Shown here one piece after another: positions 3,279 through 24,106 of a stretch of DNA of 35,652 bases (within the stretch, counting starts at the first letter, position 1; every line of letters begins with the position of its first letter). A program made the translations under genes and the position numbers. Below the pieces are notes generated by a model, which had not been told where the DNA came from, did no database searches, and was given only the letters and a program-made list of their open reading frames with translations. The stretch is from an uncultured Bacteroidota bacterium (lineage in GTDB: Bacteria > Bacteroidota > Bacteroidia > Chitinophagales > LD1): contig CAIXBT010000092.1 of the NCBI GenBank assembly GCA_903917755.1, forward strand, positions 1-35,652, given 5' to 3'.

Positions 3279-3425
3279 CTGATATGCAATATTTTTGAGG
3301 AGCGTAAATATAAAAGAAAAATCGAACGAGGTTAGAAAACATCAATAAACAGCCAAGATCAGCGGATAAGAGCCATCATGGTGTATTAGGGTGTGCTTAA
3401 AATAGCAACAAACAAGTTTTTCTTA

Positions 3426-5426
3426 TTATTTAAAAAGGTAGCCATTAAATTTGAGTTTTATTTTGCGGGTCTTGAGTTTTTTGCTGACCATTTTGCCAGT
3501 GGTGTAGATAATATAAGAATGCTTATAATAAGAATATGGCGGGGCCCGGTGGAAAGCAATAGCATCCGTCTTTGAATGTCGAGTTTCTGATAGCCTGTGT
3601 GGTGGTTTTATTGCTACGATCATATCAGTGGTATCTTTTCCTACTTTAAATATCTGTACCCTTTGCGGCTCTGCATGGTCATTTAATTCAAAAGCTTGAA
3701 TCATCCCGGACATGCTGTCCGCGTCTCCTGCCAAAAGATAATATGGCCCACTCTCTACATTCAATACCTCAAAAATATTGTAATGCTTTAAATGGTTTAT
3801 CACGTTAGTCCTGTGATCGGGGTCGAATGATTCAATTTTTTTCACCCTGATATCTCCCATATAGCTATGCGTCTGCATCACCACATCGTTATATGGGTAG
3901 GCATTTTCTCTCCAAGAGAAGATAACCGCTGAACTATCAGCCCGGAGTACCGAAATGTGTTTCTGACGCAAATACTCAAAGGGGTAGCCAAGAGATCTCC
4001 GAAGCATCAAGGTAAACTCCATATTTTTCAAAAAAACCTCTTCAGCACTTAATTTGGCTACTAAAGATAATGCCCCCATCGAATCAGCTAAACTGCAAAG
4101 CACTGCCTCGATCTCAGGCATAGATTTTGTGGTGTCTATCTTCAGCCAGTATGGAGGGGGTTTGACCAATAAGGTATCGCTGAAGTCAGGCAGCCGTAGA
4201 TGCGCGAGGTGTCGTTTGGGTCTGATGAGTTCCTGTTCGTAGATGGTATTGAAGAGATTTTTGAAAAATGGATAACCTATCTGATCGTATTCGTAGACAC
4301 CATCATTCAGTATTCCATCGGCATTGAGATACATGGCGCAGGAGAGAAAGAATTCGATCTTATTCAATGTATCCACTACATAGCTGCAGTCGGTCATAAA
4401 TCCATACGCCTGCCCGACCTTATTGAAGATGCGGATATTGTCGGGCATGATGTATGAGGTGGTATCATTACCCATAAAATACTTCATGTACCTGTCGGGA
4501 TAATGCACAGAGTCGAGTTTGGGATAGGCAGACTCTCGAGGGAACATGCCCATACATTTGTAGAGATACTGATAGTCACGGCGGGTGAGGTTGAGTTTTT
4601 CGGCGGGTTGCTGAGTCTCGGGCAGCATCACTTTGGTCAGAAATTTATGCAGATCGCTGAGTGCGATGTAATTGGCAAAGCGAAAATCTTTGGGCTGATT
4701 GATGAGCTGATCTGCGGCGCCAAGATAGCCTATGCCGACCTGCGGATCCAAGTCGCGATTGTAAAATTGCCGACGCTCATTATTGACACAGGGCTGATAA
4801 TATTTGAGCTGATGGGTATGGCGATCGAAGAGTGAGAGAGGATCGCAAAATCTGTTGGCATTAGTATCGCAAGCAGCGAAACGATTGCTGATCACCGCAG
4901 ATTTAATGCCGATCTGATGCAAGCGATCCTGAAAATACTGTTGGCCGAGAAAATCGTATACGGGATTGAAAGCCCTGTTATTGCTCAGCATGAGCATCTC
5001 TTTGATATAATGACCGAGGCATGAGTAGGGAGTGCCGAGCATCATGCTCTGCGGGTTCAGCTCTGTGCAGCCTATACTATCGACACCCAGAGAGTCTAGC
5101 ATATCCACTCTGTAAGAAGCAAGGTTATTCAACTTCTCAAGTGTCAGTGCACAGGCTGGCAGCTTGACCATGCTGGCGCAGTAATAGTAGTATTTATCGG
5201 CGTCGTAACTGTATGTGGTAAGATGCGGAAAATTGTTTGAGTCTCTGTCTATACGTGTATATATTATCTGAAGGCGATAGTCAGCTTTATGCTGAATGAT
5301 AGAATCAAAAGAGGAAGCCTGTCTGGCAAAAGTACTGTCAAACGAAAATGCCTGCCCATGTACATGGGCGAAAGAGGCCAAAATGACCAACAGTAAAATC
5401 ATATGTAGTTTGCAGGTGTTCACCAT
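3426..5426 (-). CDS. Putative exported serine hydrolase, class A beta-lactamase-like fold, with uncharacterised C-terminal region
   Basis: Likely start is the internal Met (MVNTCKLHMILLLVILASFAHVHGQ, signal peptide). SMVK (SxxK-like), LSNNRAF (SxN-like) and a later KVGQAYG (KTG-like) occur in the expected order. Confidence 0.7.
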   Translation of the reverse strand: MVNTCKLHMILLLVILASFAHVHGQAFSFDSTFARQASSFDSIIQHKADYRLQIIYTRIDRDSNNFPHLTTYSYDADKYYYYCASMVKLPACALTLEKLNNLASYRVDMLDSLGVDSIGCTELNPQSMMLGTPYSCLGHYIKEMLMLSNNRAFNPVYDFLGQQYFQDRLHQIGIKSAVISNRFAACDTNANRFCDPLSLFDRHTHQLKYYQPCVNNERRQFYNRDLDPQVGIGYLGAADQLINQPKDFRFANYIALSDLHKFLTKVMLPETQQPAEKLNLTRRDYQYLYKCMGMFPRESAYPKLDSVHYPDRYMKYFMGNDTTSYIMPDNIRIFNKVGQAYGFMTDCSYVVDTLNKIEFFLSCAMYLNADGILNDGVYEYDQIGYPFFKNLFNTIYEQELIRPKRHLAHLRLPDFSDTLLVKPPPYWLKIDTTKSMPEIEAVLCSLADSMGALSLVAKLSAEEVFLKNMEFTLMLRRSLGYPFEYLRQKHISVLRADSSAVIFSWRENAYPYNDVVMQTHSYMGDIRVKKIESFDPDHRTNVINHLKHYNIFEVLNVESGPYYLLAGDADSMSGMIQAFELNDHAEPQRVQIFKVGKDTTDMIVAIKPPHRLSETRHSKTDAIAFHRAPPYSYYKHSYIIYTTGKMVSKKLKTRKIKLKFNGYLFK

Positions 5427-21997: not shown

Positions 21998-22879
21998 GTG
22001 AAGGCAATTCTATTGGCATTGATTTTTTTTCTTCCTATGTATTTGGGTGCTCAGGTTGATCCCGTAGCGGTCAATGATCAGGACTCGGTATCTGTATCTT
22101 CAGATAGTATTCAGGAGATCATCATCGATACTGCCGCTATTTACAAAGCAGCTCATTCTGAGTTTTATAATTCAGCTATCATGTCAGGCGAAAAACCTAA
22201 ATGGTATGATATAGAGCAGCAGCGAAAAGGTAAAAATGATGCCTGGATATTTTTCATTCTGTTACAACTTCTCATTCTCCTCACTATCCTGAAACTGGCG
22301 TTCCATAACGATTTCGAGAACCTATTCAGGATATTTGCCAATTCTAATATAGCATCGCAGATAGGCAGAACTGCTAAGGACGATATCACACTTTCATCTG
22401 TACTCATGAGTATGATATTCATAACCACTATGTCTATCTTCACGCGATTTGTTCTATTGCATTTCTATCCTCACTCTGTATTACAAAATGATATTTCAAT
22501 ACTCGCTCTCATTTTTTTATTCACATTTTTTTCTGTTGCAAAGTACGTGTCATTGAAGTACATCGGAAATATTTTTGAGATAACATCAACAGTAGATGAA
22601 TACCTTTTTAATTTATCTGCTATCACTCGAACCATTGGTATTTCAATGATTCCATTACTATTCATGTTATACGCATCACCTGAAAAATATTTCATTTCTA
22701 TTCTTATCATTTCAATAATTATTTTGTGCATCGGTCTTGTAATGGTTGTTATCAGAGGGTTATCCACATCGTATAAATTGATGTACAGCAGTATGTATCA
22801 TTTTTTAATCTACATTTGTGTTGGAGAAATATTACCAATATTTCTATTTATCAAATTGTTAACCAAAACAGTTATTTAA
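21998..22879 (+). CDS. DUF4271-type integral membrane protein
   Basis: GTG start directly abutting the upstream TGA; several hydrophobic helices; position ahead of hemD matches the usual Bacteroidota arrangement (recalled, not checked). Confidence 0.7.
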   Translation: MKAILLALIFFLPMYLGAQVDPVAVNDQDSVSVSSDSIQEIIIDTAAIYKAAHSEFYNSAIMSGEKPKWYDIEQQRKGKNDAWIFFILLQLLILLTILKLAFHNDFENLFRIFANSNIASQIGRTAKDDITLSSVLMSMIFITTMSIFTRFVLLHFYPHSVLQNDISILALIFLFTFFSVAKYVSLKYIGNIFEITSTVDEYLFNLSAITRTIGISMIPLLFMLYASPEKYFISILIISIIILCIGLVMVVIRGLSTSYKLMYSSMYHFLIYICVGEILPIFLFIKLLTKTVI

Positions 22880-22880
22880 C

Positions 22881-23060
22881 ATGGCAACAAAGTCACCAGC
22901 AAAGAAGGCTGCCCCAAAGAAAGCTGCTAAGAAAGCTGCCCCTAAAAAGGCTGCTGCTAAGAAAGCTGCTCCAAAGAAAGCCGCTGCCCCTAAGAAGGCC
23001 GCAAAAAAAGCTGCCCCTAAAAAGGCTGCTAAGAAAGCTGCCCCTAAAAAAAAAGCGTAA
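22881..23060 (+). CDS. Histone H1-like Lys/Ala/Pro-rich small basic protein (59 aa)
   Basis: Manual translation: MATKSPAKKAAPKKAAKKAAPKKAAAKKAAPKKAAAPKKAAKKAAPKKAAKKAAPKKKA*. ATG is 1 nt after the DUF4271 stop. Just below the apparent 60-aa cutoff of the ORF track. Confidence 0.7.
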   Translation: MATKSPAKKAAPKKAAKKAAPKKAAAKKAAPKKAAAPKKAAKKAAPKKAAKKAAPKKKA

Positions 23061-23086
23061 GCAAGGGAAAGCAAACAAAGTTAAAC

Positions 23087-23149
23087 AGCAGTAGCACTTC
23101 CGGTCGCAATAAGGCTGATGAGAAATCAACTAAACCGAGTGCTACTGCT
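23087..23149 (+). repeat. Perfect 12-bp inverted repeat / stem-loop followed by T-rich tract
   Basis: agcagtagcact (23087-23098) and agtgctactgct (23138-23149) are exact reverse complements; inner cggt/accg can extend the stem; tttatttt follows. Confidence 0.75.
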
Positions 23150-23155
23150 TTTATT

Positions 23156-24106
23156 TTGAAAAGTGACAAAGGATCTACGGCAAAAAAATCCCAGCCCAAA
23201 ACACAAGCTCTTCCTGCTGCTAAGAAAGCTCCCCACGCTCCCGTACCATCTGTACCTCAGCCCGAAGAAAAAAAGAAGCCTGTCAGACTCGCAGATATAC
23301 TAAAATCCAAAAACGAAAAGAATTATAGTGAGTTGATCACTCACGAAGCTAAACCAAAACTTAAAAATATTTTGGTGGCGCAGCCTCAGCCAGAAGGTAT
23401 CAAGTCTCCTTATTTTGATCTTGAGATCAAATACAAAGTGAAGTTTCAGTTTACCCCATTCGTCACTGTAGAAGGTGTACCCGGAAAAGAATTCCGTAAG
23501 CAAAGGATCACTCTCAATGACTATAGTGGTATCATCTTTACTAGTCGCAATGCTATCGATCACTTCTTTCGGATATGTGAAGAACTGAGAGTGAAGATGA
23601 GTCAGGAGACTAAGTACTTCTGTACATCTGAAGCTATAGCACTCTACCTGCAGAAATACACTCAGTATCGCAAGCGTAAAGTGTTTTTCAGTGATACCAA
23701 TAGCAATAAAGAACTGAGAGGCCTTCTTCTGAAGCACAGAGAAACTACCAGATGCCTATATATCGGACCTGAGGTGAGAAGTAAGGATGAGATCACATCG
23801 TTCATGACCGAACAAAATATCCCCTATGCTGAAGCTGTGATGTATAAGACAGTACCCAGTGATCTGAAGAAGATCGATTTTAGCAAGTTTGATATGATGA
23901 TCCTGTTCAGCCCATCGGCGGTACATTCTCTGTATCAGAGCTATCCGGGTTTCAAACAGGGTAATACTAAGATCGCGGTATATGGCAAGACCACTGCCGA
24001 TGCTGTGCTTGATGCAGGCCTGAAATTTCATTTGATGGCTCCGTTGGAGGGAGCTCCGTCTATCATTGCCGGTGTTGAAAATTATTTGAAAGTATCGAAT
24101 AAGTGA
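23156..24106 (+). CDS. hemD: Uroporphyrinogen-III synthase, Bacteroidota type, with basic N-terminal extension
   Basis: LKNILVAQPQPEGIKSPYFDLEIKYKVKFQFTPFVTVEGVPGKEFRKQRITLNDYSGIIFTSRNAIDHFF. Tracked start is TTG; the frame is open upstream to 23048. Confidence 0.85.
   Translation: MKSDKGSTAKKSQPKTQALPAAKKAPHAPVPSVPQPEEKKKPVRLADILKSKNEKNYSELITHEAKPKLKNILVAQPQPEGIKSPYFDLEIKYKVKFQFTPFVTVEGVPGKEFRKQRITLNDYSGIIFTSRNAIDHFFRICEELRVKMSQETKYFCTSEAIALYLQKYTQYRKRKVFFSDTNSNKELRGLLLKHRETTRCLYIGPEVRSKDEITSFMTEQNIPYAEAVMYKTVPSDLKKIDFSKFDMMILFSPSAVHSLYQSYPGFKQGNTKIAVYGKTTADAVLDAGLKFHLMAPLEGAPSIIAGVENYLKVSNK

Follow-up and report, generated by a model that had tools for sequence, protein, structure and literature searches.

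The window analysed here is a stretch of 35,652 nt of DNA from an uncultured Bacteroidota bacterium, and all the features discussed lie on its forward (+) strand. A gene for a DUF4271 membrane protein (21998 to 22879; Pfam PF14093, E=3e-19) is followed by a short open reading frame (ORF) at 22881 to 23060, whose 59-aa translation is rich in Lys, Ala and Pro. The ATG of this ORF is separated from the DUF4271 stop codon by 1 nt, a short gap being kept across the window's family, and because of this spacing the two genes are likely to be translationally coupled. The short ORF has the K/A/P repeat composition that is a trait of the histone H1-like proteins AlgP and Hc2, and Pfam gave no match for it. 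The segment from 22850 to 22880 (AAATTGTTAACCAAAA), at the 3' end of the DUF4271 gene before the ATG, is near-invariant in four genera, silent sites included. It is possibly a promoter or a protein-binding site.

The short ORF ends in CCT AAA AAA AAA GCG TAA. The run of nine A residues (A9) at 23046 to 23054 is the candidate slip site. In the -1 frame relative to the short ORF, reading is open from 23048 and continues for 352 codons up to a stop codon at 24104 to 24106. This frame encodes a linker (23055 to 23347, 100 aa) and then uroporphyrinogen-III synthase, HemD, whose HEM4 domain (23348 to 24103; PF02602, E=1.7e-25) is the sole HemD profile match in the genome. A HemD-frame stop (TAA, 23045 to 23047) stands directly before the run and the 0-frame stop is 3 nt after it. 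Hence the two frames can be joined only by a shift within 10 nt. A preliminary description of this DNA had given the short ORF, its A9 and the open -1 frame exactly as they are found here, and had rightly seen no ATG in that frame upstream of the HemD domain. The only ATG, GTG or TTG codons there are TTG at 23156 and TTG at 23333, and the ATG of the short ORF appears to be the sole plausible HemD start in the window.

The linker contains a further feature, a conserved hairpin at 23087 to 23149, that the preliminary description did not notice. Its arms (AGCAGTAGCACTT, 23087 to 23099, and GAGTGCTACTGCT, 23137 to 23149) covary and enclose a loop of 37 nt. A T-rich tract (TTTATTTTG, 23150 to 23158), possibly the tail of a terminator or attenuator, follows the 3' arm.

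Comparison of HemD loci

We compared the HemD loci of all 30 genomes of the window's family (f1, four genera) and of sampled genomes of the order. For the layout count, two f1 genomes were set aside, one with N's in the assembly (L032) and one at a contig edge (L026), leaving 28 that are readable. The layout is shared by all 28, in four genera, and by 4/4 genomes of a second family, f4. The f4 loci (L136, L138, L153 and L154) were located with an approximate, partly hand-typed HemD N-terminus query, which was used for locating only. A short ORF with a MATK start and a K/A-rich body is present in all f1 genomes.

The run that closes the basic ORF is A9 in 28 of these 32 informative genomes and A10 in the other four. 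HemD is in the -1 frame in 32/32, and an in-frame fusion is seen in none. The 0-frame stop lies 0 to 9 nt past the run and the HemD-frame stop just upstream of it, and the overlap in which both frames are open, 10 to 46 nt, always contains the A run. This is the arrangement expected of a slippage gene: a conserved out-of-frame pair of ORFs that are joined only at the run.

One explanation put forward in the preliminary description was a one-base homopolymer error or mutation. Homopolymers are indeed prone to errors. However, the identical offset is found in independent assemblies, 28 of f1 and four of f4, even where the run is A10, and HemD is in frame in none of them; moreover, the linker is constrained both at silent sites and in structure. 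Neither an error of sequencing or assembly nor a recent mutation that shifted the frame can thus, for all practical purposes, explain the offset.

The run is read in all three codon phases: the window's genus has AAA AAA AAA, the genus g3 has GCA AAA AAA AAG, and g2 and g4 have GAA or CAA followed by AAA AAA AGC. Hence it is the length of the run itself that is conserved. Among 320 Lys-Lys pairs inside the basic ORFs the longest A run is A7, no A9 or longer run occurs elsewhere in these ORFs, and one third of their Lys codons are AAG. In 106.7 kb of compared loci, 33 of the 37 A9/T9 runs are slip sites. The 4.05-Mb genome to which the window belongs has 65 matches to A9, with both strands and overlapping matches counted. 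Judged by this comparison, an out-of-frame A9/A10 before hemD is far from chance, and the run length and the -1 offset are clearly held by selection. As a separate observation, the window genome (G000) has about 60 other A9/T9 runs, some of which may be slippage sites.

The preliminary description had also allowed for two separate genes, with hemD starting at a TTG or GTG. In such a case HemD would be made by reinitiation after the short ORF, at an ATG in f4. Candidate starts do exist: TTG 23156 is conserved, within the window's genus only; many g3 species have a GTG in the motif KADV; and f4 has a conserved ATG (MPKS) 4 codons ahead of the HemD domain. Nevertheless, no ATG, GTG or TTG in the linker common to the f1 genera was found, and in one f1 species (L020) there is none before the HemD domain or in its first codons. 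In addition, the g3 linker is constrained in the HemD frame upstream of the candidate starts: the stretch before KAD has a pN/pS of 0.58 in this frame versus 1.11 and 0.91 in the other two. For the linker as a whole, pN/pS in the HemD frame is 0.36 in g1 and 0.47 in g3, and the peptide SNSSST..KAD..SP.KSA.SF is conserved across genera. The linker thus appears to evolve under selection as a HemD-frame protein. Separate genes would also leave the constant A9/A10 and the -1 offset unexplained. We consider this explanation very improbable on the whole; it is not supported for f1, while in f4 it is possible, given that the conserved ATG may make recoding dispensable there. The f4 ATG lies within a small hairpin of its own (GATGC..GCATC in 2/4 of the f4 loci), which may mask it from ribosomes.

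It had further been considered that relatives might carry a separate histone-like gene together with an ATG-started hemD. No f1 genome does so. In each of the 68 loci compared from outside f1, HemD starts at an ATG near the domain, and a basic or histone-like ORF beside hemD is lacking. The window genome contains hemC and hemE and a single HemD, meaning that HemD must be made. In f1, a frame change within the 10 to 46 nt that hold the A run seems to be the only route to it.

Such a change of frame could be accomplished by RNA polymerase or by the ribosome, and the preliminary description had proposed either as a source of both a short basic peptide and a basic-tailed HemD. The comparison supports this proposal and favours the polymerase. 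Nine A or T residues are a classic length for bacterial transcriptional slippage (PMC5009743, PMC1088944), and in all 32 genomes the run reaches the slippage threshold of about 9. The ribosome could likewise connect the two frames by a -1 shift on A_AAA_AAA or A_AAA_AAG, the mechanism of E. coli dnaX: a usable A_AAA_AAA/G heptamer is available in the 0 frame in all three codon phases, and A_AAA_AAG is found in many g3 species. Seven bases would be enough for the ribosome, yet 9 to 10 A's are always retained, whatever the phase. The run in the window's genus is preceded by GCTGCCCCT, with nothing Shine-Dalgarno-like. The linker hairpin begins 21 to 96 nt past the run, too distant and too variable for a -1 stimulator, whose spacing is usually a few nt, and we have rejected it in that role. 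Ribosomal frameshifting, the chief rival to polymerase slippage, is in our opinion unlikely. RNA polymerase slippage would fit better because 9 to 10 A's are needed in any phase and because there is no structure at the spacing of a -1 signal. A replacement of the A9, AAGAAGAAA, has been designed that is meant to abolish both polymerase and ribosomal slippage.

The RNA hairpin in the linker

A covariance model located the hairpin at the same place in 30/30 f1 genomes. Its stem has 10 to 16 bp in f1, with compensatory changes. A MAFFT alignment of all the hairpins left the arms out of register, and hence the genera were analysed one by one. The two arms change together between species: AGT-AGC-ACT is found with AGT-GCT-ACT, AGC-AGT-ACT with AGT-ACT-GCT, AGC-AGC-GCT with AGC-GCT-GCT, AGC-AAC-ACT with AGT-GTT-GCT, and AGA-AGC-GCT with AGC-GCT-TCT. 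In a set of 14 sequences the paired cells amount to 98.8%, with double changes at 5 pairs and no one-sided changes; no shuffle reached the covariation score, and sliding the arms destroyed the pairing. A second set, of seven sequences, has 91.1% of cells paired.

The encoded peptide does not account for this structure. Over 28 loci the hairpin is more stable than versions of the same peptide written with other codons (mean z -3.9), meaning that it is no by-product of the protein sequence. The first 30 linker codons in the window's genus have a pS of 0.08, versus 0.50 further downstream, and it is the RNA hairpin that keeps this value low. The f4 genomes have a hairpin of their own, of 14 to 17 bp, at the same position. 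Six loci searched against Rfam gave no match above the gathering score.

The stem starts 12 to 89 nt past the stop codon of the short ORF (26 nt in the window). The hairpin would be accessible when a ribosome halts at that stop, and a ribosome in the HemD frame would have to melt it. Our guess is that it is either an attenuator of hemD or an mRNA stability element, tying hemD output to the slip. A T tract after the stem is a trait of intrinsic terminators and attenuators; in most f1 copies 6 or 7 of the 9 bases there are T, and L013 has 5. The attenuator reading is weak, given the long loop (30 to 45 nt) and the poor T tract in g2 (3 to 4) and in f4 (1 to 3). A simple scan calls no intrinsic terminator at the hairpin, a loop of this length being beyond what that scan accepts.

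It is also quite conceivable, if somewhat short of an even chance, that the hairpin merely protects or processes the upstream mRNA as a 3' stabiliser and takes no part in the choice of frame. A strong stem after the stop of the short ORF, in both f1 and f4, would suit this role, as would the lack of a T tract in f4, which means that termination is not general. However, the hairpin lies within the HemD coding frame, not past it, and the peptide encoded there is conserved as well.

Proposed mechanism

We propose that the locus is a programmed recoding site at which HemD is probably made by way of RNA polymerase slippage at the A9, with the linker hairpin acting downstream. The short basic ORF would provide the start of translation, its ATG lying one base past the DUF4271 stop. 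In some fraction of transcripts the polymerase would slip at the A9. Transcripts with nine A's would yield a free basic peptide ending just after the run, while those with ten (or 10+3n) would be read through the linker into HemD, giving an enzyme with a basic N-terminal tail, which would be the sole HemD of the cell. We infer the two products, and any ratio between them, from the arrangement of the frames. The hairpin, beyond the footprint of a ribosome halted at the short ORF stop, would control the fate of the downstream mRNA; most likely it would attenuate or destabilise hemD mRNA unless a HemD-frame ribosome passes and melts the stem.

A stricter version of this proposal can be formulated. 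On unslipped RNA the ribosome would stop before the hairpin, which would then end or destabilise the RNA; on slipped RNA the hairpin would be melted and hemD made. We regard this slip-coupled attenuation as doubtful. If it is correct, slippage of the polymerase would set the dose of a heme enzyme, and the free basic peptide would be the default product.

The basic part itself calls for some comment. A DNA-binding-like tail on a heme-biosynthesis enzyme had been called unusual in the preliminary description. This wording can be softened, since similar tails occur in other families of the order. Lys-rich N-terminal HemD tails of about 60 to 200 aa are encoded in frame in the families f16, f19 and f20 and in one f21 genome, so that such a fusion is evidently tolerated in the order (the f16, f19 and f20 loci are L120, L132, L133, L135, L141-L144 and L160-L169). 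In the HemD tree f1 forms one group and f4 another, and a shared single origin is not rejected (p-AU 0.57). The free basic peptide may be a by-product; in many g3 species it has only 24 to 34 aa.

Basic tails are also present on other proteins of the same organism. At L004 (window genome contig C253, about 36280 to 37298) adenylate kinase has a long in-frame Lys/Ala/Pro C-terminal tail that resembles the one ahead of HemD, and hence more than one metabolic enzyme of this organism carries a basic low-complexity tail. At L006 (contig C422, about 3400 to 3850), upstream of the gene for the ATP synthase a-subunit, a small coiled-coil protein, phasin-like by eye, has a K/A/P tail at its end.

Relation to known systems

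A close parallel is dnaX of Thermus thermophilus (PMC5009743, PMC1088944), a single gene from which polymerase slippage at a sense-strand A9 yields two products. In that gene the unslipped frame gives the long product, whereas at the hemD locus the functional enzyme would need the slip. Thermus dnaX also differs in that its first product is not a basic repeat peptide, and the linker hairpin has no counterpart in it.

The magnesium chelatase gene chlD/bchD is, like hemD, a gene of the tetrapyrrole pathway. As excerpted, the reports on it (PMC3711429, PMC9227772) describe a longer product that needs a -1 shift and plain fusions in relatives. It encodes another enzyme, with no histone-like part, and the shift was observed in E. 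coli reporters; in contrast to the hemD locus, these excerpts make no mention of a covarying hairpin in a linker.

Frameshifting in the ermC leader is a distant precedent for the attenuation idea, but it is antibiotic-induced and acts on the initiation of a separate gene.

As for the basic part, AlgP is found in association with DNA and with granules of polyphosphate (PMC9239181). The likeness of the short ORF to AlgP and Hc2 is one of low-complexity Lys/Ala/Pro repeat composition, which need not mean homology, and here the basic part would be joined to HemD by recoding.

Programmed slippage in general and -1 shifts in chlD are thus already known. Our search of the literature found no report of a recoded hemD, of a histone-like first product or of the linker RNA element, and the hemD case and its RNA element are apparently unreported.

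Implications of the hypothesis

To our knowledge, it is rare in bacteria that a housekeeping metabolic gene undergoes recoding that is both conserved and productive. Across f1, the sole HemD found seems to depend on recoding, which would give this heme enzyme a histone-like basic tail. Automatic annotation would mis-start or split hemD in f1 genomes, and the RNA element at this gene lies outside Rfam. Should the hairpin link slippage with attenuation, the dosing of hemD would take a new form. The recurrence of basic HemD tails in the order raises the question of their ligand, which may be DNA, RNA or polyphosphate.
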